From assembly GCA_017557625.1 (NCBI GenBank), contig JAFYYG010000057.1, forward strand, positions 1 through 57,632: DNA of 57,632 nt, given 5' to 3'. This DNA comes from Muribaculaceae bacterium. Its GTDB lineage: Bacteria > Bacteroidota > Bacteroidia > Bacteroidales > Muribaculaceae. Below are positions 10,726-37,051 of the stretch, in pieces. Position numbers and translations under genes: made by a program. The notes beneath the pieces were generated by a model, which had not been told where the DNA came from, searched no databases, and saw only the letters and a program-made list of their open reading frames with translations. Every line of letters begins with the position of its first letter. The first letter of the stretch is position 1.

Positions 10726-10737
10726 GCAAACGTTTGC
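10726..10737. promoter_or_regulatory. Putative operator GCAAACGTTTGC
   Basis: This is a perfect 12-bp palindrome with a central CG, of the form bound by LacI-family regulators. It lies between divergent promoters, 55 nt from the amylase -7 box and 61 nt from the -7 box of the protease gene. Near copies occur at 21803-21814 and 37040-37051 at the same distance from starch-gene promoters. Confidence 0.65.
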
Positions 10738-10775
10738 GTTTTTCGTGTGTTTTCATCATCTTTTAAGGCAACATC

Positions 10776-10806
10776 TTGCATGAGTGAGAAAAAAATGATA
10801 CTTTTG
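10776..10806 (+). promoter_or_regulatory. Promoter of the aspartic protease gene
   Basis: TTG (10776-10778), a 20-nt spacer and TACTTTTG (10799-10806) match the Bacteroidetes consensus. The start codon follows 22 nt later. Confidence 0.6.
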
Positions 10807-10828
10807 TGCAATAATAAACAATAAAGAC

Positions 10829-11674
10829 ATGACATTTCATCAAAATTCCAACGATAAAGCCAAGAGGTTCGGAATTCTGCTAATTCTGATTTTGGCAGTG
10901 GCAATAAGCGCTGCGGCAGGTGAATACACTGTGAAAATGAAGCGCAAGAGCGGAGTATATTACATTCCTTGTGTCATCAATGGAGTGAAGAAAGATTTCA
11001 TCTTCGACACAGGAGCGGCAAAGACAAGCCTCTCGCAGGAGTTTGCCAACGAGCTGCTGGCAAAGCAAGCCCTGACACGCAACGACTTCAAGGGTACTAC
11101 TCAGACTCGCAATGCCAACGGCGTAGTTGACAACAACGCCACAGTGATACTTAAGGAGGTAAAGGTTGGGAACCGACTCCTGAAAAATGTGGAGGCGATA
11201 ATCGCCGTTTCTCAAAAGGCGCCGTTGCTGCTGGGACTTAATGTTATAGATCTGCTTGGCGACTGGACAATGCGAAAAGGGTATCTCATTCTTCACGACT
11301 ATTACGGCGAGTCTGTCAAGGACGAGAAACCACAATATATCAGTCCTGCCGACATCACCTACATTGACAGCGATGATAGCACAATATACACCACTCCAGA
11401 AGCCGAGAGTGACGGCAGCCAGCCCTCTCTCAGAGTGCGAGCCTATAAGGGCGACCCCGAGGCGCAATATCAGCTGGGAATGATTTACCTCAAAGGCGTT
11501 GGCACCGATGCCAACCCTAAGTTTGCAGTTGAGTGGCTACGCATGGCGGCAACTCAGGGACACTTGGCTGCGCAACTCGCCATAGCCGACTGCTATACCT
11601 ATGGCTGGGGTGTGGAGGTTGACGAAGAGAAAGCAGAATACTGGCGCAACAAGTCGATTGAGGTGGAATACTGA
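10829..11674 (+). CDS. Retropepsin-like aspartic protease with Sel1-type repeats
   Basis: 281 residues. A hydrophobic segment at about 14-30 (FGILLILILAVAISAAAG) acts as signal peptide or membrane anchor. Residues about 35-155 form a retropepsin-like domain with the active-site motif FIFDTGAAKTSLS; one DTG per chain means it must work as a dimer. The flap and second half (LLLGLNVIDLLGDW) are also present. The C-terminal 70 residues carry two Sel1/TPR-like units (GDPEAQYQLGMIYLKGVG and GHLAAQLAIADCYTYGWG), likely protein-binding. It probably acts in the periplasm; the substrate is unknown. The lipoprotein gene downstream is on the same strand. Confidence 0.85.
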   Translation: MTFHQNSNDKAKRFGILLILILAVAISAAAGEYTVKMKRKSGVYYIPCVINGVKKDFIFDTGAAKTSLSQEFANELLAKQALTRNDFKGTTQTRNANGVVDNNATVILKEVKVGNRLLKNVEAIIAVSQKAPLLLGLNVIDLLGDWTMRKGYLILHDYYGESVKDEKPQYISPADITYIDSDDSTIYTTPEAESDGSQPSLRVRAYKGDPEAQYQLGMIYLKGVGTDANPKFAVEWLRMAATQGHLAAQLAIADCYTYGWGVEVDEEKAEYWRNKSIEVEY

Positions 11675-11725
11675 TTTTTAGGTGTTAAGTTAAGTGTCAA
11701 GTATTAAGTGTTAATAATCATTCTA
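11675..11725 (+). repeat. GTGTTAAGT-type phrase repeat after the protease gene
   Basis: The spacer after the stop codon reads as variants of one phrase: GTGTTAAGTTAAGTG, TCAAGTATTAAGTGTTAA. This is another example of a self-similar spacer directly behind a stop codon. Confidence 0.5.
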
Positions 11726-11739
11726 AAACAGGGAGATAT

Positions 11740-12555
11740 ATGGGCATAAAAAAACCATCGAGAAGTGTCATGCTGCTTCTATGCTTCATCGCATTAGTTT
11801 TCTGTTCTTGTAAATCACCCAGCAAATCACCCAGCAAATCACACCATAAAAAAGAACATGACAAGGAATTCATTGATGGGCTGAAACAAGCCAACAAAAG
11901 TTGCCCTATTGAAATTGCCGGAGGAGCAGGAACGATAGATGCTGTTAAGCTGGAAGATGATTATGTTACATTCTATGCCAGCTACAAGCAAAGCGCTAGC
12001 ACTCCTCTCCTTAACGACGATAACAAGGAGAGGCTCAAAGAAGTATTAGTTACCGCTCTCTTGAGCGGTAGGAGCAACATCATTGTCGATATGATGATTG
12101 ATGAGGGTTGTGGCCTTAAAATGGTGGCTACCAAAGACAATGTCAAGAAGACAACCGTGGTTATTCCTCTCGATGAACTAAAAGAATTCAGAGATAATTA
12201 TCGTGACAATCCGCAAGTGTCAGCTCGCAAGTCCATTGAAATACAAGTCGAGGCCGAGAAAGCCGTTCTGCCTTTAAAGATAGAAGAGGGAATGACAATG
12301 ACCGATTATATTCTTGAAGATGATTATGTCGTTTTTGTCATTGAGATAAACGAAAGTTTATATTCTATTAATACTTTTAAGCAGAATAAAGAGATCATGA
12401 AATCAGCTATAATTAACGAGGGACTTCGAGAACGTCAAGCCCAAATTCTCGTAAATATGTGTAAGTCGGCCAACATGGGAATTATCTATCGAATGATAGG
12501 TAATAAATCAAAGAACATATTTGACATTGTAATCTCATGCGATGAGCTATTATAG
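11740..12555 (+). CDS. Lipoprotein of unknown function with internal duplication
   Basis: 271 residues. The lipoprotein signal peptide ends at the lipobox VFCSC (residues about 19-24), followed by a KSPSKSPSKS linker. The rest is two related halves. Half 1 (about 65-155) has KLEDDYVTFYASY, LKEVLVTALLSG and TTVVIPLDEL. Half 2 (about 180-271) has ILEDDYVVFVIEI, MKSAIINEGLRE and FDIVISCDEL. The repeated unit is an alpha/beta domain of about 90 residues that I cannot assign to a family. It is probably attached to a membrane. It follows the aspartic protease by 65 bp on the same strand and may be its partner or substrate, which is inference only. Confidence 0.7.
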   Translation: MGIKKPSRSVMLLLCFIALVFCSCKSPSKSPSKSHHKKEHDKEFIDGLKQANKSCPIEIAGGAGTIDAVKLEDDYVTFYASYKQSASTPLLNDDNKERLKEVLVTALLSGRSNIIVDMMIDEGCGLKMVATKDNVKKTTVVIPLDELKEFRDNYRDNPQVSARKSIEIQVEAEKAVLPLKIEEGMTMTDYILEDDYVVFVIEINESLYSINTFKQNKEIMKSAIINEGLRERQAQILVNMCKSANMGIIYRMIGNKSKNIFDIVISCDELL

Positions 12556-12931
12556 ATGCAGGGGGGGTATGAGAATGAAAAAAACGGCGAGACCGAGGAA
12601 TTTACCACAAATTCAACTCGGCCTCAATACTATTGCAAATAAAAAGAGTAAAATGAAGTTATTCTAAATCAAATCAACAACTAAAGAGTGTGCGAAAAAT
12701 AATATAACCATCGTAATTAATACTGCCTAAATCTTTTTTAGTTTGTTGTGTCTTTTTCTGTCATGAAAAAAGCTATGGATTGAATGTGTTTTCGCCCTAT
12801 AAACACAGGGGCTGCGAAAATACTGCATCAGCTCCCTGAATTTTAACATCTTTTTTGATTTGACCCGAATCGGTCATTAGGATTTTCGTTGAGAAAAATG
12901 AGAAAAAGGTGACGATTTTTCTTCTTCATTT
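12556..12931. other. 376-bp intergenic region between converging genes
   Basis: No credible ORF is present. At 12593-12621 there is an imperfect hairpin (CCGAG/CTCGG, inner GAATTT/AAATTC) with a T-rich stretch on its minus-strand 3' side. At 12798-12850 there is a diverged copy of the promoter-region repeat found twice upstream of the sigma factor gene. A minus-strand transcript between the two is conceivable. Confidence 0.45.
12798..12850. repeat. Third, diverged copy of the sigma-promoter repeat
   Basis: TATAAACACAGGGGCTGC-GAAAATACTGCATCA matches the copy at 14901-14932 at most positions. It lies downstream of the sigma/anti-sigma genes. Confidence 0.5.
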
Positions 12932-14314
12932 TTAGAAATCAACCGACAATCCCATTTGCAGATTGAAGTTGAAGGGGTGCTCATTGCGCAATGTGTTGAG
13001 TGGTAAAGTGGTGATGTAGTGCGAGAGTTTGGGTTCGATGTAGATGCCCACGTGCTTGGTGAAGTTGTATTGTGCCCCGGCTGTAGCGTGCACCGACCAT
13101 TGCAGGCGCTTGATAGTGACATCGTCATTTCCGAAGGACGCATCAACTACCCTCTCAACCATTCCTTCTCCTCCCACGAAGGTGGTGAGCCCCTTGTATC
13201 GCCAGAAATTCCATCTCACGCCAAACGGCAGGCCTATCAGCTTGATGTCCTGCTTAAACATCCCACTGCCGTTATCTGGGGTGACATCGCTGGACATGGT
13301 TGTGAAGTTAATTCCCACGTTGCCGTAGAGGTTCCCGACGATGCGCTTGGTGAATGTAAGACCAAAGGTGAGTGGCATGTGGTGGTGATAGTCGTAGTTG
13401 ACTGGTGGTGCCACGTTGGGGGTCATTCCTGGTGCCCCAGGCGCCATCATCATGCCAGGATTGGTGGTGGCTGGTGGAAGTAACATCTGTGCCGAGGAAC
13501 CACTGACAATGCTGTTGCGGTCGGTGGAAACGAGTCCGTTTCCGTAGGCTGCCAGAAGCATCGAGGTCTTTTTCCTGGGTTTTGTAAGCGACATTTTTTC
13601 GCGTGCCACTCGTCGAGCATTAGCATCATAGACGAGATACTGCTGGTAAGTGCTGTCGGTGTAACTTTTCCATGGTTCCATCGCATCTTGGTTCATGACG
13701 TTGTCATACTGGCTATACAGCTCCTCGAGAGCCAACATTGTCTCTATGTCGTAATAGTAGTTCTCGGGGTCGAACTCATTAGGATAATCGGCGAGGTCAA
13801 TTAGTTCGCTGGTGTTGTTTGCCAATAGCATATCGTCGATTGATCCAGTCTTGTCAACGTTTTGTGGCAGGGTGTTGTTTACGTTGCCGTAATCTTGCTT
13901 TGGCGCTCCGACATATTCTTGTGGGAGCGACGGCTGTGGCTCGATGCTGTTATCCTGAGCCAGCAGCGGTTCGTCGGTGATATCGAGTTGTTGCTCACTG
14001 CCCGAGATTGCGGGTTCTTCAATCACTGACGGAGTATTGCTTGGTTGGTTAGATGCCAGCTTGTCAATGCTATCCTGCTTGTCGTTACGAAGCAGGAAGA
14101 ATCCCATGGTGGCGACTATGGCAACAACGGCTGCGGCAGCTGTGGCGCGCCACCAGAATTGCGGCGCAATTCTCGTAGCCTTTGCCGGGGCTGCTTGCTT
14201 GTTGGCCGACTTGGCAATAGCCTCCCACGTTCCTTCTGGAACCTCGCGGGTGGCATTTTGAGCTTTTTGCTTCAAAGCGTCAAGCCAGTCATTGTTATTT
14301 ATATTGTTGCTCAT
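12932..14314 (-). CDS. Anti-sigma-like membrane protein with C-terminal beta-barrel domain
   Basis: 460 residues. Residues 1-50 are soluble and helical (NDWLDALKQKAQNATREVPEGTW), as in anti-sigma N-termini. A transmembrane helix follows at about 54-76 (ATAAAAVVAIVATMGFFLLR). Then comes a long acidic, Pro/Asn-rich linker (about 77-250). The last 200 residues alternate polar and hydrophobic strands with aromatic girdles and end in Phe (GLTFTKRIVGNLYGNVGINF, IKLIGLPFGVRWNFW, FNLQMGLSVDF), typical of outer-membrane beta-barrels. The gene overlaps the 3' end of the ECF sigma gene by 20 bp, which argues for translational coupling and for a sigma/anti-sigma pair. If both ends are placed as predicted, one chain would span inner membrane, periplasm and outer membrane. 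Confidence 0.75.
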   Translation of the reverse strand: MSNNINNNDWLDALKQKAQNATREVPEGTWEAIAKSANKQAAPAKATRIAPQFWWRATAAAAVVAIVATMGFFLLRNDKQDSIDKLASNQPSNTPSVIEEPAISGSEQQLDITDEPLLAQDNSIEPQPSLPQEYVGAPKQDYGNVNNTLPQNVDKTGSIDDMLLANNTSELIDLADYPNEFDPENYYYDIETMLALEELYSQYDNVMNQDAMEPWKSYTDSTYQQYLVYDANARRVAREKMSLTKPRKKTSMLLAAYGNGLVSTDRNSIVSGSSAQMLLPPATTNPGMMMAPGAPGMTPNVAPPVNYDYHHHMPLTFGLTFTKRIVGNLYGNVGINFTTMSSDVTPDNGSGMFKQDIKLIGLPFGVRWNFWRYKGLTTFVGGEGMVERVVDASFGNDDVTIKRLQWSVHATAGAQYNFTKHVGIYIEPKLSHYITTLPLNTLRNEHPFNFNLQMGLSVDF

Positions 14315-14888
14315 AGTGGTAATCGTTGTTTTGCTCGTTTAAATATTTCTTGATTTTCTGTGCCAAGAGGGCTTTTGCTCTCGCCAGCTGCGACGATGAT
14401 GACTTCTCGTTGATGCCTAACTGCTCGGCAATCTCTTTGTGCGAATAACCGTCTAGGCAGTATAGGTTGAAAACCGTGCGGTAGCCATCGGGCAGCTCTG
14501 CCACCATCTCAAGAATGGTGCTGGTGTCGAGACGGTTGACTTCATCGACAGTCGCCTCCTCAACGACATCGGGCGGGTCATCCATATCGGTGGCGCTAAC
14601 AGTAGTTACCACCAGTCGTTTGCGGCTTCGCAGGAAGTTGATGGCTGTGTTAACCGCAATGCGAGTGAGCCATGCCTGCAGCGACCCATCCCCTGCCCAT
14701 GCGAAGCGGTCGATTGTAGTGTAAGCCTTGATGAACGTGTCTTGCAGCACATCTTTTGCATCGTCGTCATTGCCCACATAGCTGAAGATTTTTGCCATCA
14801 GTATTGGTGAGTATCGGTCAAATAGAGCTCGCTGAGCATTTGCTTTGCCCTGCTTGCATCCTCGGCTGATATCTCTTTCACTCATCAT
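14295..14888 (-). CDS. ECF-type RNA polymerase sigma factor
   Basis: About 197 residues from ATG 14888 (MMSERDISRGCKQGKANAQ). A GTG start at 14909 is possible but falls at the predicted transcription start. Region 2 is FDRYSPILMAKIFSYVGNDDDAKDVLQDTFIKAY, given here only as a stretch at residues about 25-65 with key DDAKDVLQDTF. Region 4 near the C-terminus shows LPDGYRTVFNLYCLDGYSHKEIAEQLG with a helix-turn-helix. It directs RNA polymerase to a small regulon, probably held in check by the overlapping downstream gene. Its own promoter region contains a duplicated motif that may be autoregulatory. Confidence 0.92.
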   Translation of the reverse strand: MMSERDISRGCKQGKANAQRALFDRYSPILMAKIFSYVGNDDDAKDVLQDTFIKAYTTIDRFAWAGDGSLQAWLTRIAVNTAINFLRSRKRLVVTTVSATDMDDPPDVVEEATVDEVNRLDTSTILEMVAELPDGYRTVFNLYCLDGYSHKEIAEQLGINEKSSSSQLARAKALLAQKIKKYLNEQNNDYHYEQQYK

Positions 14889-14900
14889 GATGTGGCATTC

Positions 14901-14965
14901 TTTAAACACACGGGGTGCAAAATTACTGCATCATTTGATGAAAAAAAATTATTTTTTCCAAAAAA
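14901..14965. repeat. Promoter-region repeat, copy A
   Basis: This roughly 65-bp segment (TAAACACACGGGGTGCAAAA, then TTACTGCATCA and an A/T-rich tail) is repeated at 15030-15095. On the minus strand it contains the -7 box TAATTTTG of the sigma gene (14918-14925). Confidence 0.65.
14918..14925 (-). promoter_or_regulatory. -7 box of the ECF sigma factor gene
   Basis: The minus strand reads TAATTTTG inside repeat copy A, 30 nt before the start codon at 14888. Confidence 0.55.
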
Positions 14966-15029
14966 AATGTTGACACCGGTGTTTTGGCCTCTTTGTCGTC
15001 TCAAGTCAAGAACTTCAAAGAACTCACTC

Positions 15030-15095: not shown

Positions 15096-15126
15096 GCCAT
15101 GCACCTGGTATTTACAGTCATAAAAT

Positions 15127-15163: not shown

Positions 15164-15171
15164 GTAAAACG

Positions 15172-15211: not shown

Positions 15212-15234
15212 CAAAGTTTTTTAGCGAGTTGCTA

Positions 15235-21683: not shown

Positions 21684-21787
21684 AGAGAAGATGGAGGAAC
21701 TGGAGATTCTGGAGGTTATGGAAGTTTTGAAACAGTGTTCCAGATTTTCCAGTAATTCCATAACATCCAGCACTTCCAGTTTTCCGG
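21684..21787. repeat. Self-similar CTGGA repeat forming a long inverted repeat
   Basis: Directly after the stop codon, GAACTGGAGATTCTGGAGG-TTATGGAAG is followed by a segment whose reverse complement reads ACTGGAAGTGCTGGATG-TTATGGAA. The arms pair over 20-25 bp with few mismatches. Such a hairpin could protect or end the upstream transcript. Confidence 0.65.
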
Positions 21788-21802: not shown

Positions 21803-21814
21803 GCAATCGTTTGC
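21803..21814. promoter_or_regulatory. Putative operator GCAATCGTTTGC
   Basis: One mismatch from the perfect palindrome at 10726-10737. It ends 55 nt before the -7 box TAATTTTG (21870-21877), the same spacing as at the amylase gene. Confidence 0.6.
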
Positions 21815-21869: not shown

Positions 21870-21877
21870 TAATTTTG
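21870..21877 (+). promoter_or_regulatory. -7 box of the 1633-residue protein gene
   Basis: TAATTTTG follows TATATATA and lies 68 nt before the start codon. Confidence 0.6.
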
Positions 21878-21945: not shown

Positions 21946-24900
21946 ATGAAAAACTATCTTAAACAGTGGGCATGGAGAACACTTTTAGCGCTCACTTGCA
22001 TCTTAACCGCATCCTCGGCTTGGGCTGAAACTTGGACTGTAGCTGGAGAACCTGCAGCATTGTTTGGTACTACATGGTCTCCAGGAACTACTGCCAATGA
22101 TATGACAAATGTCAGTGGAACGAAGTATGTTTTCTTTAAGAAAAATATTACAGTTTCGGGTGCCGTACAATTTAAGGTTTGTAAGGACCACTCTTGGGGT
22201 GAGGCTTATCCTTCTTCAAATTACAATCTGAATTGCTCCGCTGGGACTTACGATTTCCTTATCACTTTTGACAGCAACTCAAAAGATGTAAAAGGAGTTT
22301 ATTCCTTTACAGTAGCAGGCAATAATACTACTTTATTTGGAACTTCTTGGAATCCAAGCAATATTTCTAACGATATGACCACTACTGACGGAAATATCTA
22401 TACATGGACAAAAGAAAATGTTGTGTTGACTGCAAGTAATGTGGAATTCAAAGTGTGTGGTAATCATGGTTGGGATATATCATATCCATCAAATAATAAA
22501 ACACTTAACATCTCAGAGAATGGCACTTATAATGTGACTATTACCTATAATAGTTATACTGATGAGGTCACAGCCACCGCCGAAAAAGTACAAACAGATA
22601 TAGATGCTCCCATATTCTCTCCTGCTGCTGGCACTTACAACAGCAACCAAAATGTGACGATTTCGTGTGCCACCAGTGGTGCGACCATCTATTACACCAT
22701 CGATGGTAGCACCCCAACCACAAGCAGCACAGTTTATAGTGGGGCTATCGCTCTCAACGGCGAAGGCACTACAACCATTAAGGCTATAGCTGTTAAGAAT
22801 GGTAACACAAGTCCAGTAGCCGATGCTACATACATCATCGCCTATGACCGCTATTACGTTCGTGGTAATAACACCGATATTTTTGGTGCTGACTCTTGGA
22901 ACACCAATGCCAACGTGATGACTACAAGCAATGATCAGGACTACACATGGACTTCAAGCCAAGTAAATCTTGCTGCAAATGCTAATATTGAGTTCAAGGT
23001 GGTGAAGAATGGCACACAATGGATTGGGACCGATGGTGACAACAATGGTAACAACGTCACCTGCACTGCCTCTCAATCAGGTGTTTATACTCTCACTGTC
23101 AACTATACAGTGCATGGTGTACCAACAGGCACTTTGAACCTTATCGCAGCCACCCCTGATGCTCCCACTTTCATTCCTGCCTCTGGCACTTACAACAGCA
23201 ATCAGAGCGTGACGCTGGCTTGCGCCACTAGTGGAGCGACTATCTACTACACTACCGATGGCAGCGACCCAACCACCAGCAGCACGGTTTACAGCGGTGC
23301 AATAGCCCTCAATGGTGAGGGGACAACCACCATCAAGGCCATTGCCGTTAAGGACGGCCTTTCGAGTGCAGTTGCCGAGGCAACTTACATTATCGCTTAC
23401 GACCGCTACTATGTGGTTGGTGAGCCTAATGACGTATTCCCAAGCGGCTGGAGCATTGGTGACGCTCAACTGATGACCGCCAACGGCACAACATGGACTT
23501 GGACAAAATCGCCAGTCACACTCACCGAAAATGCCACTATTGCCTTCAAGGTGAAGAAGAAAAGTGGCAACGACGAAACATGGATTCCTAGCGGAGCCAA
23601 TATCACCGTTAGCCCACAATATGGAGCTGGACAGTACGCTCTCACCATCACCTACGTGGAGGGGGCAGAGGCACCTACCGCCACACTAACACCGCTCTTT
23701 GCTGTCGCTCCAGTGTTCTCTCCTGCTGCTGGCACATACGACTGCAATCAGAACGTGACAATCACTGCAGGCAGTGGCACAATCTACTACACCACCGATG
23801 GCAGCGACCCTGCTACCAGCAGCACGCGTATTGAATATTCCGCAGCAATTCCTCTGCATCACGAGGACACCTTCACCATCAAGGCAGTATCAGTTAGCGG
23901 CGGGGAAACCAGCGCAGTGACAACTGCTGAGTACACCATCAAATATGTGAATATTTACCTCTTTGGCTCGGTTGGCAAGCAGCATACTTGGCTTTACTCT
24001 TACACCAATCCTGAGCTCACTACCAGCGACGGCATCAACTATTATGGCGTATATGACATCCTGAACATGCCCAGTTACACCGACCGTCCGGGTGCAGGTC
24101 TCTTCCTGCTCACCACCGGTTTTGGCACCAACTGGGAGACCACACAGCAGTACATGATTGGTGCGACAGGTAGCGGCAACTTCTGGATTGACGGCAGCCA
24201 CAACTACCTGGGAGAGTGGGTTGACGCCGCGCCAATAGGCCAGAGCGACAAAGGTTGGACCATCATCCCCAACAACGGTAGCGGCACCTATGAGTTCTTC
24301 TATGACCGCGCAAACAACAAATTCAAACTTGCTGCCTTTGACGGTCCTACAATCTATGTTTATGACTACACACGTCCTTATATCTATGTAAAGGACAATA
24401 ACGATGTGGAATTCAATGGCGAGATGCCTGGTAATCCCATCCAGATTCTCGACGAGAGTGTTGGCGGCCACAGCGGTTTGAGTGAGGCTGGTGACGGTTC
24501 TGATCTTGGCACAGGCACATTAGGTTGGTATAAGTTTGCCGTGCCCTCTCACGACACACCCATTACCTTCCAGTTCTTCCATAACAACGACAAGACCGTG
24601 GTGCCCAGTGGAATGCTCACAGCCTCTGGCGATGTGTATTACTACTGGGATGGCGAGCAATACGTTAAACTTAACTCTCGTGCTGATGCCGACAAGTTGC
24701 GCCGCATCGTGGCTCACGTACGCGTGCAAGGCACTGAGGTGCCCACCTGCGACGGTGTGCCAATGAACGGCCCAAGCTCGTTCTATGGACAGATGTACTA
24801 CTGGCTGGCAGTAACCAAATACAACGAAGATGAGCGCATGGTAATCACCGATGGCACTCACCACTACGACAACACCATCTCCAGCGACATTTACTTGGAA

Positions 24901-26847
24901 TGGACCGATGCACAGGGTGCAAATTATGACCTGTTGAGTCCACAGACTCTCAACGAGCGTCTTGCCAACAAAACCGTCCGCGGAACCATTATCCACATGC
25001 AGAAGAACCGCAACACCGACCCAATTCACGGTGACTATGTGTTGGGAATTGATACTAAAGTACAAGATGCTGATGTATGGACCAACACCACCAATCTTGG
25101 CACCACCTGGTGGGGAACTTCGCTCGATAGTCCTTGGAAAGGTTCAGTGGCTTGGACCGATGGCATTCTTACAAACTACGACAACTCACGCTTCCTTTAC
25201 ATGGAGAATGGAATCACTCGCGGCCCTGATGTTTACATCGTCACTGCTGAGGACGGCACCGAGTGGTACACATGGTACTGCGACCGCAGTACTGCCACCA
25301 TCAGATTTGGATATGGCGAGCCTCTTAACGGCTATCCCACTTACGAGAGTGACAAAAATGTTTACAAGTTCTTTGCTCATTACGAGAGCGAAGAGCTGCA
25401 CCAGAATGCTGGCGAGTTATGGTACGTTTGGACTCCCGACTTCGAAGCCACTCTCGACGGCAATGGTCAGAGCAGGGATAATGGAGAGATTCTTGATGTG
25501 ACCCGTATGTATGAGAGTAGCGCCAAGCAAAAGGCTCTTTGCTCTACATTCCGCGACGGCAACTATGTTTATTACACAGATATCAAGGATTGGGGCGACG
25601 ACAACGTGTATTGCTACGTTTGGAGCGTGCCTGGCATCGAATGGCCCGGCATCAAGATGGTGAAGGTGGGTTATGACGATGAGGGGCATCCCGTATATCT
25701 TGCCGACCTTTCCAACTATGACGTGAGCAACGCTGAAGGCATTCTCTTCAACAACGGTGTCACTGATTCTCATGCCACCAACAAGCGTCAGACAGGCAAC
25801 CTCACTTGGGAGAACCACGGCTGCTACGACTATCTAGGTCTCATCTATCGCATTGGCGGCAATATAGACGTTATCGAGAACGAGCCTGACGGTGAGAACT
25901 CATCGCTCACCCTGCGTGGCGTGTGGTACAGCCGCGTGAAAGGCACTCTTTTCGCCAAGGGCAATAACGATTACAACAACAAGAGCGTGAACAGCCGCGG
26001 TTACATCGACTTCTCAAAAGTGATGACCGACGGAGTGAGTAGCGATGTGCTTCAATCCTGGGATTATGACCAGAGCAACTGGGTGGAGATTGAACCCAGC
26101 GAGAGCGTGAGTGCCGAAGACCTAAAGGCCCTGCTTGAGCAAGAGTTCACCCTCTATGGCACTAAGCTCAGCAGTGTGAATCCACGCTTCAAGGCTATCT
26201 CCATCAGCAACCAGCACAACACAGCGGCTTATCAACCCAACCACTTCACTCCAGCGCATTTCAACGGCACGTGCTTCCAGCAGCGTCGTGGCGACAACGA
26301 GTGGTACTTCTTTGTGGAGCCAAAACCAAACGAGCTTGCCGAGATTGACTGGGCAATTTACAACGATGGAGCGTTCTATGCTTATTCACAATCAGGATTT
26401 GATGGCACCATCAATGTTGACTGGAGTTATCACGATCCAGGCTACAGCGAAGCCAACATGACTAGTACTATTGGTTTCGATCCAGAGGCTTGTGGTAAAG
26501 ATCCCGGTACGCTTATTGACTTGAACGGCTACAGTGGATGGCTTGCCATCATCAAACTTGCCGAGACACCTACATCACAAAAAGGACAGTATGATGAAGA
26601 CGATTTGGCGCCATCTTCAAGCAGAGCAGCAAAATATACCGTTTATCCCGTTCTGCTCAACGATGACTTTGTCACTGCTGTTGAGACTATCAACAGCGAC
26701 AAGGCAACTGGCTTGCGCACCCTCAAGTGCACCCGCTACTACAACCTTATGGGTGTTGAGTCGAGCACTCCATTCCAGGGCGTGAACATCATCGTCAAGG
26801 AATACACCGACGGCTCACGAGAGGCATCAAAAGTAATAATGCGCTAA
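21946..26847 (+). CDS. Giant secreted multidomain starch-binding-type protein
   Basis: 1633 residues with a signal peptide (about 1-27, ending SSAWAE). Four related beta-sandwich units (about 28-115, 120-205, 300-395, 485-580) share motifs such as VAGEPAALFGTTWSP, YYVRGNNTDIFGAD and IEFKV. They resemble starch-binding units of amylolytic surface proteins. Three chitobiase-like Ig domains (about 219, 404, 587) have nearly identical text (SPAAGTYNSNQNVTI, ATIYYTxDGSxPTTSS). A CBM26-like unit lies near 1218 (VYCYVWSVPGIEWPG). No catalytic barrel is recognisable. The last 45 residues (RYYNLMGVESSTPFQGVNI, ending KVIMR) look like a Bacteroidetes C-terminal sorting or anchoring tail, not a dockerin. 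It probably holds starch at the cell surface. Confidence 0.8.
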   Translation: MKNYLKQWAWRTLLALTCILTASSAWAETWTVAGEPAALFGTTWSPGTTANDMTNVSGTKYVFFKKNITVSGAVQFKVCKDHSWGEAYPSSNYNLNCSAGTYDFLITFDSNSKDVKGVYSFTVAGNNTTLFGTSWNPSNISNDMTTTDGNIYTWTKENVVLTASNVEFKVCGNHGWDISYPSNNKTLNISENGTYNVTITYNSYTDEVTATAEKVQTDIDAPIFSPAAGTYNSNQNVTISCATSGATIYYTIDGSTPTTSSTVYSGAIALNGEGTTTIKAIAVKNGNTSPVADATYIIAYDRYYVRGNNTDIFGADSWNTNANVMTTSNDQDYTWTSSQVNLAANANIEFKVVKNGTQWIGTDGDNNGNNVTCTASQSGVYTLTVNYTVHGVPTGTLNLIAATPDAPTFIPASGTYNSNQSVTLACATSGATIYYTTDGSDPTTSSTVYSGAIALNGEGTTTIKAIAVKDGLSSAVAEATYIIAYDRYYVVGEPNDVFPSGWSIGDAQLMTANGTTWTWTKSPVTLTENATIAFKVKKKSGNDETWIPSGANITVSPQYGAGQYALTITYVEGAEAPTATLTPLFAVAPVFSPAAGTYDCNQNVTITAGSGTIYYTTDGSDPATSSTRIEYSAAIPLHHEDTFTIKAVSVSGGETSAVTTAEYTIKYVNIYLFGSVGKQHTWLYSYTNPELTTSDGINYYGVYDILNMPSYTDRPGAGLFLLTTGFGTNWETTQQYMIGATGSGNFWIDGSHNYLGEWVDAAPIGQSDKGWTIIPNNGSGTYEFFYDRANNKFKLAAFDGPTIYVYDYTRPYIYVKDNNDVEFNGEMPGNPIQILDESVGGHSGLSEAGDGSDLGTGTLGWYKFAVPSHDTPITFQFFHNNDKTVVPSGMLTASGDVYYYWDGEQYVKLNSRADADKLRRIVAHVRVQGTEVPTCDGVPMNGPSSFYGQMYYWLAVTKYNEDERMVITDGTHHYDNTISSDIYLEWTDAQGANYDLLSPQTLNERLANKTVRGTIIHMQKNRNTDPIHGDYVLGIDTKVQDADVWTNTTNLGTTWWGTSLDSPWKGSVAWTDGILTNYDNSRFLYMENGITRGPDVYIVTAEDGTEWYTWYCDRSTATIRFGYGEPLNGYPTYESDKNVYKFFAHYESEELHQNAGELWYVWTPDFEATLDGNGQSRDNGEILDVTRMYESSAKQKALCSTFRDGNYVYYTDIKDWGDDNVYCYVWSVPGIEWPGIKMVKVGYDDEGHPVYLADLSNYDVSNAEGILFNNGVTDSHATNKRQTGNLTWENHGCYDYLGLIYRIGGNIDVIENEPDGENSSLTLRGVWYSRVKGTLFAKGNNDYNNKSVNSRGYIDFSKVMTDGVSSDVLQSWDYDQSNWVEIEPSESVSAEDLKALLEQEFTLYGTKLSSVNPRFKAISISNQHNTAAYQPNHFTPAHFNGTCFQQRRGDNEWYFFVEPKPNELAEIDWAIYNDGAFYAYSQSGFDGTINVDWSYHDPGYSEANMTSTIGFDPEACGKDPGTLIDLNGYSGWLAIIKLAETPTSQKGQYDEDDLAPSSSRAAKYTVYPVLLNDDFVTAVETINSDKATGLRTLKCTRYYNLMGVESSTPFQGVNIIVKEYTDGSREASKVIMR

Positions 26848-27828: not shown

Positions 27829-29739
27829 TTAGAACTCTAGGATAAGCGTCTGCCGTGGGGTGAGGGTGATGTCGCTCACTAGGCTGACGTGGTTGCCGGT
27901 GGGGATGTCACGGCCTACCATGGCGTTGCCTATTATTTCGGCATAACGCTTCACTGGCATGGTGGCATTCTCGTTGGTGCCGTTGACTATTGTCATCACG
28001 GTCTTGCCGTTGTATTGGCGAGCCACAACATAGATGCCATTGTGGGGCAGGAATTGAGTCTGCTTGCCCTTAGTAATTACATCACTGCCGGGACCTTTGC
28101 GCCAGTGGAGCAGGGCGCGGAGCCAGTTGAACATATCGTTCTCTTCCTTGCTGCGTCCCTGCGAGGTGAATGCGTTATGAGAGTCGCCGGGGAAGCCTCC
28201 TGGGAAGTCCTTGCGCACATTGCCGTCGGTTACATGCTTGGTGCCGTTGAGCAACACTTCACTGCCATAGTAGAGCTGCGGTATGCGGTTGATGGTAAGC
28301 AGCAGGGCCAAAGCCTGTTTGAGGGTGTTGGCATCCTTGCCGTCCTTGAGGTAGCGGTCGGTATCGTGGTTCTCGATAAACGCCATCACGCTGCTTGGGT
28401 TGGGGTAGAGGTAGTCAAACACCAAGCTATTATATACTCGGTTAAAGCCACGCCACTGGTTGTCTGTGGTCTCGATGCGTGCTGAATCAACGCAGGCGTA
28501 AAACGAGAAGTCCATCACCGTTTTGAGGTAGCTGTTCTCCTTGGCGATTTTGCTGTCGCGCTGCCAAGCGGCGGTGTAAGGCGGCTGCTCAAACCATGTC
28601 TCGCCCACCACGTTGAAGTTGGGGTACTCGTTGTCGATTCTCTTCATCCAGCGTGCCATAGGAGCTGCAAAGGCATAAGGGTAGGTATCCATGCGGATGC
28701 CGTCGATTCCCACAGTCTCAATCCACCAGATGCTGTTCTGGATGAGGTAGTTCATCACGTGAGGATTGTTCTGGTTGAGGTCGGGCATGGTGGATACGAA
28801 CCAGCCTTCCACAGTCTGCTTCTTGTCAAACTCGCTAGCGTAGGGGTCAAGCACGGGAGCCAACTTGTAGCTTGTCTGCATGAAGCTGGTGTTGCGAGAG
28901 TCGCTGGTGCCTTTCGACTCCTTGAGCCATTCGTGGGTGTTGAACCAGTCGTTGCTGGGCATATCAGCTACCCAGGGATGCTCAAAGCCACAGTGGTTGA
29001 AAATCATGTCCATCACCACCTTGAGATTTTTGCTGTGAGCCTCATCAACGAGACGACGATAGTCGGCATTGGTGCCGAAACGTGGGTCAACGCGGTAGTA
29101 GTTGGTGGTGGCATAGCCGTGATAGGTGTCGTTCCACGGACTCTCGGGCGAGTCGTTCTCCAGCACTGGAGTGAACCACAAGGCAGTCACGCCTAAGTCG
29201 TTGAGATAGTCAAGATGTTGTCGTATTCCCTCCAAGTCGCCGCCATGACGGTAGCTAGGATGGTTGCGGTCGCACACCTGGCTGCGCATCCCTGCCACAC
29301 GGTCGTTGGCAGGGTTGCCGTTGGCAAAACGGTCGGGCATGAGCATATATAGCACATCGGCATTGGTGAATCCCATGCGTTTGTCACCGCTCATCTCACG
29401 AGCCTTAAGCTCGTATTTCGCATCATAAGAGAGTTTGCCCTTCTTGAAAGTGAGTGTCATAATACCTGGCTGTGCGCCAGCGGTGTTGAGGTAAATAAGC
29501 AGGTAGTTGGGACTTTCAAGCCTCACGAGGGAGTCGATTTTCACACCAGCGTAATTGGTTGTTACCTCGGCATCACGGATGTCTTGTCCATAAACCATGA
29601 GTTGCACCGACGGATCTTTCATGCCCACGAACCAGTTGGTGGGCTCAATGCGGTCAACTTTAAAAACAGGCATCTTAGGCACCGCCCAGGCGGCTACCGC
29701 AATGAGCACTGCCATTAATATGAGAATTGTTTTTTTCAT
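27829..29739 (-). CDS. susA: SusA-like neopullulanase / cyclomaltodextrinase (GH13)
   Basis: 636 residues. A signal peptide (about 1-19) suggests a periplasmic enzyme. The N-terminal cyclomaltodextrinase-N domain (about 24-120: VDRIEPTNWFVGMKDPSVQL, VYGQDI) is followed by the barrel. Catalytic regions are DGIRMDTYPYA (about D349), VVGETWFEQ (about E379) and FIENHDTDRY (about D457). A C-terminal cyclomaltodextrinase-C domain ends the chain. Domain order and length match SusA of Bacteroides. It should cut maltooligosaccharides and pullulan after import. It is the last gene of the malQ-susB-pulA-susA run, 89 bp behind pulA. Confidence 0.92.
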   Translation of the reverse strand: MKKTILILMAVLIAVAAWAVPKMPVFKVDRIEPTNWFVGMKDPSVQLMVYGQDIRDAEVTTNYAGVKIDSLVRLESPNYLLIYLNTAGAQPGIMTLTFKKGKLSYDAKYELKAREMSGDKRMGFTNADVLYMLMPDRFANGNPANDRVAGMRSQVCDRNHPSYRHGGDLEGIRQHLDYLNDLGVTALWFTPVLENDSPESPWNDTYHGYATTNYYRVDPRFGTNADYRRLVDEAHSKNLKVVMDMIFNHCGFEHPWVADMPSNDWFNTHEWLKESKGTSDSRNTSFMQTSYKLAPVLDPYASEFDKKQTVEGWFVSTMPDLNQNNPHVMNYLIQNSIWWIETVGIDGIRMDTYPYAFAAPMARWMKRIDNEYPNFNVVGETWFEQPPYTAAWQRDSKIAKENSYLKTVMDFSFYACVDSARIETTDNQWRGFNRVYNSLVFDYLYPNPSSVMAFIENHDTDRYLKDGKDANTLKQALALLLTINRIPQLYYGSEVLLNGTKHVTDGNVRKDFPGGFPGDSHNAFTSQGRSKEENDMFNWLRALLHWRKGPGSDVITKGKQTQFLPHNGIYVVARQYNGKTVMTIVNGTNENATMPVKRYAEIIGNAMVGRDIPTGNHVSLVSDITLTPRQTLILEF

Positions 29740-29828: not shown

Positions 29829-31775
29829 TTAATCGTGCATGATAATCGCTGAGCGGGGTGGGGCGATAATCTCGTCGGTTGTGAGGGTGTAGATTCCGTC
29901 CTCATTGATAACATCGCCGTCGCCCACGATGGTGTAGGTTGATTTAGGCAGTTTCACCGTGCGTTTATCGTTGTTGCCATTGAGAATCACAATCATGTTG
30001 TTCCACTTGTCGCCAAGTTCGTTGAGATTCTTATATCGGTAAACCACGAGGCAGTCTCCACCGGGCAGGAACTCGAGAGCTCCAGCAGTAGAGGTGCGAT
30101 TGAACTTGGGGTCGGAGATATATGCAATGTGATGATTCTTGCGCAAAGCGATAAGGTTCTTGTAATAATTGAACACCTGAGGATAGCGCTTCAGGTTATT
30201 CCAGTCAAGGTGGTTGATGCTGTCGGGACTCTCATAGCTGTTGTGCACACCCTTCTTGTCGCGCAGCATCTCCTCGCCACTGAGCATAAAGGGAATGCCT
30301 CGCGAAGTGAATACTGCGGTCTGCGCCATCAGGTCGAGCTTGATAAGGTCTTTCTCGGTGAGGCCAGGGATGCTGGCTTTCAGCCTGTCAACCAGGCACA
30401 TATCATCGTGGCAGCTTACGTAGGCAATCATCTGGTTGGGGGTGTTGGCAAACGGAGCCTTGCTGTAGTTCACCTTGCTGTAGTCGATTTGCGGATGTTG
30501 TGATGCACCGGCGATACCGAATTTCAGACTTTCCTCATATCCAGGAATACCACCCAAGAAAGCTGCTTTGTCATCACCGTCCCAGGGTCCGCGCAATGCG
30601 TCGCGAATGTCGTCGCTGAAGGCTGCGATGCCAGGTACCTGTTTCATGTTGGCCTTCATCGCCAATCTCTCATTAGGTATAGCGCAACCTCCAGCACTCC
30701 AGCCTTCACCGTAGATGATGCGGTTGGGGTCGTTTTGATGCACCATGTCGGCGATGGCGTTCATTGTCTCGATATCGTGAATACCCATTAGGTCGAAACG
30801 GAATCCGTCGATGCCATATTCTTCCATCCAGTATTTCACGCTTGCGAGCATAAAGGCGCGCATGATTTCGCGGTCGCTGGCGGTCTCGTTACCGCAGCCG
30901 CTGCCGTTGCTCCAAGAGCCATCGGGGTTCTTGCGGTAGAAGGTGTCTGGACAGGTCTTCTGGAAATTGCCGTCATCAATGCTGAAGGTGTGGTTATACA
31001 CGACATCAAGCACCACCTGAATACCAGCCTTGTGCAACGCCTGCACCATTTGCTTGAACTCACGGATGCGGGTAGCGGGGTCGTATGGGTTGGTGGAATA
31101 ACCACCCTCAGGCACGTTGTAGTTCACTGGGTCATAGCCCCAGTTGTAGCGGTTCTGTTCCAGATGTTCCTCGTCAATTGAGCCGTAATCGTAGGACGGC
31201 AGGATGTGGATGGTGTTAACACCCAAACTCTTGAGATGCTCAATCGCCTTAGGCTCGGTGAGCGCGAGGTACTTGCCCTTATTTTGCAAACCGCTTGACG
31301 GGTCAATCGAGAAGTCGCGGTGGTGCATCTCGTAGAGGATATGGTCTTCAAGAGCGATGTATGGCGACCGCCTGCCGCTGTCCCAACCTTCGGGATTGGT
31401 CTCGGTCATGTCGATGATGGCACCGCGGCGGCCGTTCACGCCCACCGCTTTGGCAAAGATGCCCGGGTTCTCGCCCATATATTTGCCGTTATATTTCACG
31501 TCAAAGGTGTAGAACTTGCCCTTGAGATCGCCCTTGATGGTGGCATGCCACTCGCCGGCGATTTTCTTGTCGCGCTTCATCTCCACTTTCTTGAGCACTT
31601 TGCCGTCCTTGCCAGCGTCGTAGATGCGCAGCGTCACGCCCTGTGCGTCATCGTTAGTGTTGAGCAAGAACTCAGTGGCCTTGGGAGAATAGGTCATCTC
31701 GTTGAAATTGTAGTCGCGAGCACCTGCTGTAGCCATAGTCAATGCGATTATTGCTGTTAATAGTAATTTTTTCAT
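29829..31775 (-). CDS. pulA: Type I pullulanase (GH13)
   Basis: 648 residues with a signal peptide (MKKLLLTAIIALTMATAGA). A CBM48-like domain at about 30-130 (FLLNTNDDAQGVTLRIYDAG) precedes the barrel. The diagnostic pullulanase motif YNWGYDP is at about residue 210. Catalytic regions are DVVYNHTF, GFRFDLMGIHD (about D326), YGEGWSAGG (about E356) and YVSCHDDMCL (about D455). It cleaves alpha-1,6 branches of starch-derived dextrins, here probably in the periplasm. It lies between the GH97 and susA-like genes on the same strand with short spacers. Confidence 0.94.
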   Translation of the reverse strand: MKKLLLTAIIALTMATAGARDYNFNEMTYSPKATEFLLNTNDDAQGVTLRIYDAGKDGKVLKKVEMKRDKKIAGEWHATIKGDLKGKFYTFDVKYNGKYMGENPGIFAKAVGVNGRRGAIIDMTETNPEGWDSGRRSPYIALEDHILYEMHHRDFSIDPSSGLQNKGKYLALTEPKAIEHLKSLGVNTIHILPSYDYGSIDEEHLEQNRYNWGYDPVNYNVPEGGYSTNPYDPATRIREFKQMVQALHKAGIQVVLDVVYNHTFSIDDGNFQKTCPDTFYRKNPDGSWSNGSGCGNETASDREIMRAFMLASVKYWMEEYGIDGFRFDLMGIHDIETMNAIADMVHQNDPNRIIYGEGWSAGGCAIPNERLAMKANMKQVPGIAAFSDDIRDALRGPWDGDDKAAFLGGIPGYEESLKFGIAGASQHPQIDYSKVNYSKAPFANTPNQMIAYVSCHDDMCLVDRLKASIPGLTEKDLIKLDLMAQTAVFTSRGIPFMLSGEEMLRDKKGVHNSYESPDSINHLDWNNLKRYPQVFNYYKNLIALRKNHHIAYISDPKFNRTSTAGALEFLPGGDCLVVYRYKNLNELGDKWNNMIVILNGNNDKRTVKLPKSTYTIVGDGDVINEDGIYTLTTDEIIAPPRSAIIMHD

Positions 31776-31829: not shown

Positions 31830-34189
<2,360 letters not shown>

Positions 34190-34190
<1 letters not shown>

Positions 34191-34259
34191 TTTCAGTAAT
34201 AATCTAGAAGTTCTAGAAATTCTAGTAAATCTAGAAAATCCAGAACTTCTTGTGGATGT
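34190..34259 (-). repeat. TCTAGAA phrase repeat after malQ
   Basis: Variants of TTCTAGAA, TTCTAGATT and TACTAGAA run on directly from the malQ stop codon. Similar phrases lie at 3815-3845 and 42972-42994. Confidence 0.65.
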
Positions 34260-36941
34260 TTATCGATAGCTTTGAGCGATGAGTTGCTTAACCTTAGCGT
34301 TGAACTCGCTGTTCTCCATCAAGTCCTCGATGGTCATGTGCATGCGGTAGCGCCAGTAGTGTCGTGGGTTGGCTGGCACATTGATGCGCTCGGCATTGGC
34401 ATCGGGCAGACGCAGCTCCTCGTCAATCGAGAGCCAGTCTTGCAGACTCAGCAGGCACAGCATCGATGGGCTGTAGAGGTGCTGGGCCACGATGTCGCGA
34501 GCGAGCCATCCAGGCAGTGGATGAGGAGCAGGTCCCGACTTCCACATTACCTCGTTGTAGTACTCCTGCGAAAGTTGCCAGTCCTCATCCCACCATTGGC
34601 GCAGAGTGCTCATGTCGTGGGTGCTGATGGTGCTCACCGAGCGGTATGGATTGCTCTGGAGGTGTCCAAACTTGAGTTTGTTGTCCTTAGGCATGGACTG
34701 AATCTCAAGGCTCAAAATCTTAAGCTCGTTCATTACCCAGGGCACGCAGTCGGGCACCATGCCGAGGTCCTCGGCGCACACGAGCATGCGTGTGGCCTGA
34801 ACCAGGCGTGGCAGTTTCTTCATCGCCTCGTGATACCAGAAGCGGTTGTTGCGGCGATAGTAGTAGTCGTTATACAGGCGGTTGAAAGCCTCCTTGTCGT
34901 TATCCCACAATGCCTCATAGATGAGTGCCAATTGCGCGGTGATTCGTGGATGGAACTTGTTGGAATCTTTGCGGTCGCGCACGAAGAGCACGTTGTTGAT
35001 GAGCGAGAACAAGCCATCGCGCACCCACTTGTCATCTTCGGTGGTCTTGCCGGCGAAGGCAGCCTCAATCTTGCGCTGAGTGTCATACTCGGGACGCATC
35101 TTCCAGATGTCATCGTGAGAGTGCTGCAAGAAGTTGTCGCGCACACGCTGAGCGTGAGGGCCGAACACACGGTCGATAATCCAGTCGGCGATGAATGGTT
35201 CGGTGAAGAACTCTTCCTGCCAACGCAGTCCGTAGCCCTCAACCTCCTCGCGAGTCATGCCGAGAGCGGGTGAGAACTGGCCAAGCAGGCCCTGAACCGA
35301 ACTGATGGGAATCTCCCAGATGCGGAAGAAGCCGAGCACGTGGTCGATGCGATAAGCGTCGAAATACTCGCTCATGTTCTGGAAGCGGCGAACCCACCAC
35401 TGGCAGCCGTCTTTGAGCATCTCGTCCCAGTTGTAGGTTGGGAAGCCCCAGTTCTGACCGTCGGCGCTGAAAGCATCGGGTGGCGCACCGGCCTGACCGT
35501 TCATGTTGAAGTAGTTGGGCTCTACCCAGGCATCGCAGCCGTTGGGGCTGATACCAATGGGGATGTCGCCCTTGAGAATCACGTGCTTACTGCGAGCATA
35601 GTCGTGAGCGGCTTTCATCTGAATGCTCAGCTCAAACTGCACAAACATCCAGAAAGCTGCCTCTTTGCCCATATCAGTGGTCATATCCTCCACGCTCTTT
35701 TTGAGCGATGGGGTGAACTGGCGGTGGTTGGGCCACTCCTTGAAATTGGCGGTACCGAACTTGTCGCGCAGCACACAGAAAGCGGCGTAAGGCACGAGCC
35801 AACGCTTGTTGGCGGTATAGAAATTCTTGTAGTCGTTACCCTTGACAATCTTCTCGCCGTCTTGCTCCCACACGTCGCGCAGATAGTTGAGCTTTAGTTT
35901 GTTGACACGCTCATAGTCAATCTGTGGCAGAGCATTGAGCTCCTGGCCTTCGGCGATGTAGCTCTTCATCTTCTCCACATCCTTGAGGGCGGGCAGTTGA
36001 CGAAGGTCAACATACATTGGGTGCAGGGCATAGATTGAGATGCTATTGTAGGGATAGCTGTCGGTCCACGTCTTGGTGATGGTGGTGTCGTTGATAGGAA
36101 GTACCTGGAGGGCACGCTGGCCTGTTTTCTCCATCCAGTCAATCATCTTTTTGAGGTCGCCGAAGTCGCCCACACCGCAGCTCTGCTTGCTGCGCATCGA
36201 GAAGATGGGAATTACGGTACCTGCGATGCGCCATGCTGGCAGTGGGAATGTGGCTTGAGCCAGTTCGTAGCTCACCACCTCGCTAGTAGCGAGTTCGGGC
36301 AGGTCTATGCTGCGGTTGTCACACTCTTCCCAACAGATGTTGCCCTTATCGTCAATAGCGACGAATTTGAAGGTGATGTGGCTTGATGCCAACTTCGACG
36401 TGTTGAGTTTGATGGCCCACTGATTGTGAGTGATTTCGGTCATCATAAGACCGCGTTTCGCGCTCCAGTCGCCCAATGCGGGACCTTCGCCACAAAGCAC
36501 CAGGTGCTGGTTACCGGCGAGTTGAGGCGCACGCACGTTTATGATGGCAGTCTTGCCAAAACCAGTGCTTGCGAGCTTGCCCTCGGGACGCTCGGCAAGG
36601 CAGTCGGTAAATGCGCTGCTGTAGAGGTAGCTGTCCTCGGGCAGGTCGAGCCAGTGGTCATAGATAATATAACGTTTGGCTTTAGCGCACGAGAACACTA
36701 AGCGGTGAGGCACGGTCTGCCACTCATGGCGCATTTCCTCGTCTCCGCGGTTTACGCTGTAATAGTAGTCGATGTGACGTCCGCTTACTCCGGGATAGCT
36801 TACCTCACAAGTCCAACGACGGCCGTCGGTGGTGGTCATCTTGTGGACACTGTCGAGGAAATCAAGCTTACTGTCATCAATGTGCAACACTATCTCCTCT
36901 CCAAAGATAGTCTGGTAGTCTAGATTGAAAATTAGTTTCAT
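34260..36941 (-). CDS. malQ: 4-alpha-glucanotransferase with two CBM20 domains (GH77, DPE2-like)
   Basis: 893 residues, no signal peptide, so cytoplasmic. Two N-terminal CBM20-like domains are present (about 1-120 and 135-225, the second with HLVLCGEGPALGDWSAKRGL). The GH77 barrel follows: IPIFSMRSKQSCGVGDFGDL, YRIDHVLGFFRIWEIP (about D531, nucleophile), CAEDLGMVPDCV (about E723) and STHDMSTLRQWW (about D775). The tandem CBM20-GH77 order is that of plant DPE2 and common in Bacteroidetes. It shuffles glucan chains between maltose, maltodextrins and glycogen. It is the first gene of the operon and has a candidate operator upstream. Confidence 0.95.
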   Translation of the reverse strand: MKLIFNLDYQTIFGEEIVLHIDDSKLDFLDSVHKMTTTDGRRWTCEVSYPGVSGRHIDYYYSVNRGDEEMRHEWQTVPHRLVFSCAKAKRYIIYDHWLDLPEDSYLYSSAFTDCLAERPEGKLASTGFGKTAIINVRAPQLAGNQHLVLCGEGPALGDWSAKRGLMMTEITHNQWAIKLNTSKLASSHITFKFVAIDDKGNICWEECDNRSIDLPELATSEVVSYELAQATFPLPAWRIAGTVIPIFSMRSKQSCGVGDFGDLKKMIDWMEKTGQRALQVLPINDTTITKTWTDSYPYNSISIYALHPMYVDLRQLPALKDVEKMKSYIAEGQELNALPQIDYERVNKLKLNYLRDVWEQDGEKIVKGNDYKNFYTANKRWLVPYAAFCVLRDKFGTANFKEWPNHRQFTPSLKKSVEDMTTDMGKEAAFWMFVQFELSIQMKAAHDYARSKHVILKGDIPIGISPNGCDAWVEPNYFNMNGQAGAPPDAFSADGQNWGFPTYNWDEMLKDGCQWWVRRFQNMSEYFDAYRIDHVLGFFRIWEIPISSVQGLLGQFSPALGMTREEVEGYGLRWQEEFFTEPFIADWIIDRVFGPHAQRVRDNFLQHSHDDIWKMRPEYDTQRKIEAAFAGKTTEDDKWVRDGLFSLINNVLFVRDRKDSNKFHPRITAQLALIYEALWDNDKEAFNRLYNDYYYRRNNRFWYHEAMKKLPRLVQATRMLVCAEDLGMVPDCVPWVMNELKILSLEIQSMPKDNKLKFGHLQSNPYRSVSTISTHDMSTLRQWWDEDWQLSQEYYNEVMWKSGPAPHPLPGWLARDIVAQHLYSPSMLCLLSLQDWLSIDEELRLPDANAERINVPANPRHYWRYRMHMTIEDLMENSEFNAKVKQLIAQSYR

Positions 36942-36975
36942 ACTGCAATATATTTATTAGTTTTTTTCCAGTGAG

Positions 36976-36983
36976 TAAAATTA
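36976..36983 (-). promoter_or_regulatory. -7-like box of the malQ operon
   Basis: The minus strand reads TAATTTTA, one base off TAnnTTTG, 35 nt before the malQ start. The operator at 37040 begins 56 nt further upstream. Confidence 0.45.
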
Positions 36984-37039
36984 CTAACAATTATGTTACT
37001 TTTTGTCAATTATCTATTATAATAAGGTGGAAAAACTAT

Positions 37040-37051
37040 GAAAACGTTTGC
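37040..37051. promoter_or_regulatory. Putative operator GAAAACGTTTGC
   Basis: One mismatch from the perfect palindrome GCAAACGTTTGC at 10726. It lies 56 nt upstream of the malQ -7-like box. Confidence 0.55.

Follow-up and report, generated by a model that had tools for sequence, protein, structure and literature searches.

Introduction

SusR, the regulator of the starch regulon in Bacteroides thetaiotaomicron, binds maltose in the periplasm and is predicted to recognise a direct repeat whose centres lie 67 or 77 base pairs (bp) apart, and the LacI-family regulons that are given for this species in the available part of the same source, those of KdgR, UxaR, UxmR and UxuR, all concern uronic acids (PMC3878776). 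For Bacteroides, the available text of a compendium of LacI-family regulators mentions UxaR, UxuR and KdgR (PMC4052901). A paper from 2023 describes, in its accessible part, three control systems of glycan loci that are specific to Bacteroidota and that sense via periplasmic domains (PMC10316084), and LacI genes are known at other glycan loci, the accessible parts of these articles not treating LacI control of starch promoters (PMC5306329, PMC12915301, PMC11784079). In the literature, we found no description of LacI-controlled starch regulons for Bacteroidota, most subscription journals and RegPrecise being outside the search. In this study, we analysed a stretch of 57,632 nucleotides (nt) from a Muribaculaceae bacterium (hereafter, the window; GenBank assembly GCA_017557625.1, contig JAFYYG010000057.1), which is contig C45 of a 3.05-Mb draft genome that has 76 contigs and is 88% complete, and in which three palindromic sites precede starch genes. 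Judged from the sequences, it is close to certain that these sites belong to a starch regulon of the LacI family in which the position of the operator hardly varies. That the LacI-family protein activates the starch promoters, standing where SusR would be expected, is the best explanation, and we give it, taken as a whole, a probability of roughly 0.75.

The regulon resembles that of SusR in that susC-type transport and starch enzymes would be activated in a member of Bacteroidota, but it differs in having a LacI-type regulator, which is soluble according to its domains, and one palindrome. The MalR and maltose LacI repressors of Firmicutes likewise place maltodextrin and starch genes under LacI-family control; here, however, no NCBIfam equivalog exceeded its cut-off and the operator position fits activation and not a roadblock. 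CcpA and PurR bind palindromes with a central CG, and CcpA activates from upstream sites. Among the solved proteins, CcpA was the best match of our regulator and PurR a lower one, but the regulon comprises starch and neighbouring glucose metabolism and not global catabolite or purine control. In class I activation by CRP, a single upstream site is used, and the arrangement here, with one operator near -72 before a promoter whose upstream element is poor, is reminiscent of this; the protein family, the sigma factor and the promoter type are different, and a contact with the alpha subunit would be by analogy. Cra (FruR) of Escherichia coli is a LacI-family protein that activates some genes, but it controls the central carbon flow, and a uniform operator position over a starch regulon is not described for it in the available part of the source (PMC4052901).

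Operators and promoters in the window

The initial annotation of the window had proposed three palindromic 12-mers at 55, 55 and 56 nt from -7-type boxes. All three were located exactly when the coordinates were rechecked, and the same gaps were measured. The features are as follows (aa, amino acids):

10726 to 10737, no strand assigned: LacI-type predicted operator GCAAACGTTTGC of the secreted amylase promoter, an exact site with a minus-strand box at a gap of 55
10663 to 10670, minus strand: -7 box TAAATTTG of the amylase promoter, gap to the operator 55
21803 to 21814, no strand assigned: predicted operator GCAATCGTTTGC of the gene for a 1633-aa protein, from the site search of the window
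21870 to 21877, plus strand: -7 box TAATTTTG of the gene for the 1633-aa protein, gap to the operator 55
37040 to 37051, no strand assigned: predicted operator GAAAACGTTTGC, which reads GCAAACGTTTTC in the direction of malQ
36976 to 36983, minus strand: -7 box TAATTTTA of malQ, gap 56, the last A being kept in seven relatives

The box form TAnnTTTG, as it had been annotated, applies to the amylase and the 1633-aa gene, but not to malQ, whose box does not end in TTTG. The operator centre, which had been placed near -68, lies nearer to -71 to -74 if the first base of the box is at -10 to -12, a value that is based on arithmetic and not on a mapped transcription start. Sites with at most one mismatch numbered three in the window compared with a mean of 0.3 in dinucleotide shuffles, and none of the 200 shuffles reached three; sites that were paired with a TAnnTTT[GA] box at a gap of 54-57 numbered three in the window and zero across the 200 shuffles. 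The signal is the long palindrome together with its position, rather than loose matches or the core.

A scan of the whole draft genome for sites with at most one mismatch, which had been suggested in the initial annotation, returned nine, six of which have a box at a gap of 55 or 56: the three in the window, that of a second amylase with dockerin and CBM26 domains (C37), that of the susC promoter (C63) and that of a 770-aa dockerin protein (C38), the operator of which has a CC/GG centre. The layout of the amylase operator and box in the window recurs in the listed places of two other genomes (G001 and G042). An additional site, GCAATCGTTTGT, lies on C57 at a gap of 56 upstream of an enolase gene (L241:5318-6622); enolase genes with an operator at a gap of 56-57 are also present in G001 and G042 (L243:264-1568; L247:2910-4214).

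The LacI-family regulator

The LacI helix-turn-helix domain (PF00356, LacI_N) was found in exactly one gene of the genome, with a score of 56.9 bits against a cut-off of 27. The product of this gene has 341 aa and carries the effector-type domains PF13377 and PF00532 (LacI and sugar-binding-protein domains). The gene is situated outside the window, on C63, divergent from susC, susD, susE and a susF-like gene, and its intergenic region with susC contains GCAAACGTTTGC without a mismatch, at gaps of 56 nt to the susC box and 49 nt to that of lacI. The view that the palindromes are LacI-family operators, and the advice to look for a LacI gene beside other sites, had both come from the initial annotation, and both agree with this arrangement. 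The best explanation of the sequences is that the palindromes serve as operators for one LacI/GalR-family protein that is encoded on C63. Its closest solved homologue was CcpA (2.6e-39), with PurR lower (6e-29); among the NCBIfam LacI equivalogs, none passed its cut-off, the best being CytR with 203 of 436 bits. The TVSR of the helix-turn-helix was invariant among 21 aligned homologues.

Sixteen close orthologues (84-95% identity) come from records that are labelled Muribaculaceae, Prevotellaceae, Porphyromonadaceae or Bacteroidales, several of them from rumen or omasum. When the own locus is included, the exact palindrome is present upstream of lacI in 17/17 loci, with a gap to the lacI box of 49 in all of them and a gap to the divergent box of 56 in 15 and 57 in two. 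Among 61 genomes of the genus, 59 have a LacI orthologue, each in a single copy and with 58-100% identity. The operator lies upstream of lacI in all of the best 30 genus loci, which overlap in species with the 16 named loci; the gap to the divergent box is 54-57 in 29 of these 30, and the gap to the lacI box is 48-49 in nine, 19 in four and undefined in 17. A divergent susC was confirmed in 28 of the 30, the other two reaching contig ends, and in 43 of the 46 loci when the 16 named loci are added, where the remainder consists of one susC that was matched piecewise and the two contig ends. The palindrome with a central CG, GCAAWCGWTTGC, is found at 17/17 and 30/30 of these lacI loci, and one target keeps a CC/GG centre (8/8 closest loci).

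A control layer other than SusR had been suggested for the window, and as far as it was tested, this appears to be correct: the divergent neighbour of the susCDEF cluster is a LacI gene and not a SusR-like one (SusR itself was not searched for), and the site is a single inverted repeat, a separate SusR motif not having been searched for, whereas the SusR motifs are direct repeats. Triple-Y sensors were considered as alternative controllers and rejected, as the PF07495 (Y_Y_Y) domain had no match in the 88% complete draft, while a control Bacteroides matched; SusR is not excluded by this result. Hybrid two-component glycan sensors of the triple-Y type may be absent from this genome.

Composition of the regulon across the genus

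A pattern of the box, 36-66 free bases and CAAWCGWTTG, which covers only gaps of 35-65, matched in all 61 genomes of the genus, with 318 matches compared with 4 for the reversed pattern. Among 150 listed places in 31 genomes, the gap was 54-57 in 121, 53 in three, 48-49 in 11 and scattered in 15. The target operators lie wholly upstream of the promoter, mostly 54-57 nt from the box, and not over the -33, the -7 or the start; an overlap of the roadblock type was observed only at some lacI promoters, where the gap is 18-19.

The 124 listed places with a gap of 53-57 comprise five in the own genome, 65 in 17 genomes and 54 in others. Of those 65, 53 precede genes with a starch-protein match, i.e., a match to a starch protein of the own genome, some of which are short and rest on binding modules; five precede genes for MFS carriers and two precede glycogen synthase genes, three lie within long open frames and two have no readable gene (one at a contig end, one with no open reading frame (ORF)). 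The first 60 that were fetched contain 52 of the starch matches: 21 and five to the two amylase types, 14 to SusC, 11 to the starch-binding repeat type and one to PulA. The five that were read later, four of which had at first been passed over by eye as likely chance and one as a known lacI locus, are the susC operator of a lacI locus, three sites in long frames and one with no ORF. In a second batch, 20 of the 54 other places, 11 genes were of the starch type and two were for MFS carriers. The initial annotation had asked whether the motif is as common before unrelated genes and whether relatives lack it or vary its distance; few sites at this distance precede such genes, and relatives keep their sites at the same distance.

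The comparison of orthologous promoters that had been recommended showed the same constancy. The malQ operator stands at a gap of 55-56 in 7/7 relatives, in one of which it has an additional mismatch, and the TAAnTTTA-type box is the same. The gene for the 770-aa dockerin protein (L022:6344-8656) has an operator with a CC or GG centre at a gap of 55-56 in 8/8 closest loci, including the own one, and a CG-centred site at 54-57 is present in three of four more distant loci and absent in one. By our reading, the repeats of this protein have a starch-binding look.

When 35 of the enzymes were scanned, the alpha-amylase domain was found in 24, CBM26 in 24, dockerin in 27, X25 in nine and CBM20 in seven. 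The type I dockerins on these 27 regulon proteins (e.g., window 7690-10620; L018 13082-16276) stand beside CBM26 and X25 and could be a hint of an amylase complex at the cell surface. The two glycogen synthase genes have their operator at a gap of 53-54 (L129 and L180, genomes G060 and G018), which links starch uptake to storage. A single operator is common to malQ and an MFS gene in G022, with gaps of 55 and 57 (L259).

Mode of control

In B. thetaiotaomicron, -7 and -33 promoter elements were found at 81% of the primary starts, according to the accessible part of the source (PMC7366714). The -33 element, scored as TTG 19-21 nt before the box, was present in 3 of 69 distinct regulon promoters and in 24 of 61 control promoters (P=6e-7), neither set having mapped starts, and in 3/49 and 23/52, respectively, after near-duplicates were removed (P=9e-6). 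At spacings of 26-28, TTG showed no difference between the two sets (one in each). The control promoters were taken from the same loci by a script that took, for ORFs of at least 200 aa, the last TAnnTTTG at a distance of no more than 160 nt, those bearing the operator core being removed. A second operator within about 150 nt was found at only one of 36 promoters with enough flank, and a T-rich tract follows 7-9 nt past the operator in 27/47 compared with 11/53. Looping between operators was rejected on the basis of that 1/36, a count that left out regions reaching just 100-150 nt, so that distant partners are possible.

We favour activation because of the fixed gap, the absent -33 element, the rare second operators and the T-rich tract beside the operator, which lend indirect support to the activator-like use that had been suggested initially. 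From these features, we infer that a LacI dimer would bind GCAAWCGWTTGC at each starch promoter, with the centre of the site lying about 72 nt before the transcription start, and that the bound protein would activate by replacing the absent -33 element through a contact with RNA polymerase. By analogy with CRP, the likeliest contact would be with the C-terminal domain of the alpha subunit, positioned on the T-rich tract that closely follows the operator, and the effector would probably be a cytoplasmic sugar of the maltodextrin type. A stronger version, in which the LacI protein acts on the SigABfr polymerase as an obligate class I-type activator, at promoters that lack a -33 element and from an almost constant operator position near -72, and replaced SusR in the control of starch in the genus, and also in some families elsewhere in the order, seems to us about evenly balanced.

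Occurrence beyond the genus

In the order, a LacI homologue at E below 1e-60 was found in 89 of 247 genomes. In families f22 and f59, LacI homologues with 54-56% identity are divergent from susC, and the operator lies 55-56 nt from the susC box. A genome of f20 (G079) has an operator at a gap of 55 before malQ and another before an alpha-glucan phosphorylase-type gene, and in one of f22 (G081), an operator precedes the gene for a protein with a weak glycogen-binding-type match. Among 28 distant loci that were scored, the divergent box was at a gap of 54-57 in eight, the site was at 67-68 in five and the gap was 45 in one. Three of the five sites at 67-68 form a tandem pair with a site at 55-56; the spacing is about one helical turn and again fits a face-dependent contact.

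A search of the order with a loose core was set aside, as it matched in 142/247 genomes, many by chance; in its 150 listed places, sites with a flanking G were at a gap of 54-57 in 29/55, compared with 11/95 and no peak for the others. In the class, a strict search matched in 26/395 genomes, and the cases that fit the arrangement at the starch genes were in families f22, f59 and f20 and in one genome of f105 (G265). In another f105 genome (G165), the site is flanked by a LacI homologue (31% identity) and by a gene that had no starch-protein match, with gaps of 60 and 45. The other matches in the class had no starch gene, save that SusC was matched weakly in G614, at a gap of 46, and more than once in G089, at a gap of 66; a match in G544 lies by a LacI-type fragment.

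Alternative explanations

Several observations weigh against activation by the LacI-family protein, or against the regulon as drawn here. In the window, sites with two mismatches were not enriched (4 compared with 4.07 expected), and the bare 8-base core AANCGNTT was at chance level (16 compared with 17.6). Three of the nine sites in the own genome have no box at a gap of 54-57, two of them being inside ORFs on C11 and C32 and the third on C55, between a convergent lpxH-like gene and a MATE gene. The second batch of 20 places included two enolase genes, one argR, one FUR-like gene, two genes without a Pfam hit and one place with no readable gene, and in a genome of f59 (G473, L217), the exact operator stands at a gap of 56, with a 293-nt leader, before a GH28 pectin-type gene, which is outside the starch theme. 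As to the regulator, no site was found within 700 bp of three distant LacI homologues with 55% (L039), 36% and 27% identity (L040 and L041), and the upstream operator was absent in 10 of the 28 loci that were scored elsewhere in the order. The gap of the lacI promoter is also unlike that of the targets (49, and 19 or none in other species), and some sites may therefore repress.

The strongest competitor, which we nevertheless regard as unlikely, is that the same LacI regulon works by repression, i.e., that the sugar-free protein restrains RNA polymerase or blocks another activator until starch sugars release it. The maltose regulator MalR of Firmicutes is termed a repressor in the accessible part of its source (PMC4052901), and in some species, an operator covers the -33 region of lacI, with a gap to the box of 18-19 nt, and is autorepressor-like there; at the targets, however, the operators are wholly upstream of the promoter, and a looping partner (within about 150 nt) was seen in only the one of 36. 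Promoters without a -33 element would be weak after release, and a blocked second activator would need a conserved site of its own, whereas the sole other signal is the T-rich tract.

It is very improbable that a different DNA-binding protein of like specificity uses the operator and that lacI is merely its neighbour. The binding of LacI to the operator is a prediction, and a few distant families pair operator-like sites with LacI homologues of just 41-47% identity; nevertheless, only one LacI gene was found, the operator is beside lacI in 30/30 loci and is a palindrome with a central CG, CcpA is the best solved homologue and the TVSR is invariant in the 21 homologues. That the palindromes are chance matches selected by eye, as the background-level counts of two-mismatch sites and of the core might suggest, is already refuted by the 0/200 shuffles, the 318 matches compared with 4 in 61 genomes and the orthologous promoters (17/17, 7/7 and 8/8).

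Significance

If activation by the LacI-family protein is correct, it would be added to SusR, hybrid two-component systems and ECF sigma factors as a further mode of control for the glycan loci of Bacteroidota, in a host group of uncultured gut bacteria, many of which come from ruminants. Unlike the systems with periplasmic domains, such an activator would sense its effector within the cell, after uptake, and its activity would be unusual for a family that is best known for switching genes off. The starch capture would be tied to glycogen synthesis in two species and to enolase in the own clade. The fixed geometry provides a rule for finding members of the regulon and for building sugar-responsive promoters for Bacteroidota, and it allows a direct test of class I-type activation of the unusual SigABfr polymerase.

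Other features of the window

The genes downstream of the three operators, and one divergent neighbour, were characterised using Pfam:

7690 to 10620, minus strand: secreted alpha-amylase of 976 aa with CBM26 and dockerin domains
10829 to 11674, plus strand: aspartyl protease/Sel1 gene, divergent, with the amylase operator at a gap of 61; membership of the regulon doubtful
21946 to 26847, plus strand: 1633-aa protein with X25 (pullulanase-type) and CHB_HEX_C/Fn3_assoc repeats
27829 to 29739, minus strand: susA-type GH13 with N and C domains of cyclomaltodextrinase
29829 to 31775, minus strand: pulA-type GH13
31830 to 34103, minus strand: susB-type GH97
34260 to 36941, minus strand: malQ, a GH77 with CBM20

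The amylase operator was considered as a joint switch for the aspartyl protease gene and rejected, as the gap from this gene to the shared operator is 61 in the window and in G001 and G042 (in the latter two by match length) and 38 in G049; its membership is left doubtful because the gap is not conserved. In G049, the operator of the C37-type amylase is shared with argR (L249, minus-strand ORF 3618-4100), the box of which is at a gap of 56. Between malQ and susB lies a short dispersed repeat (34199-34253) of units of about 9 nt, which had many BLASTN matches on both strands in relatives, 46 of them whole-query matches in G042, and the stretch 21690-21785 resembles this repeat by eye.

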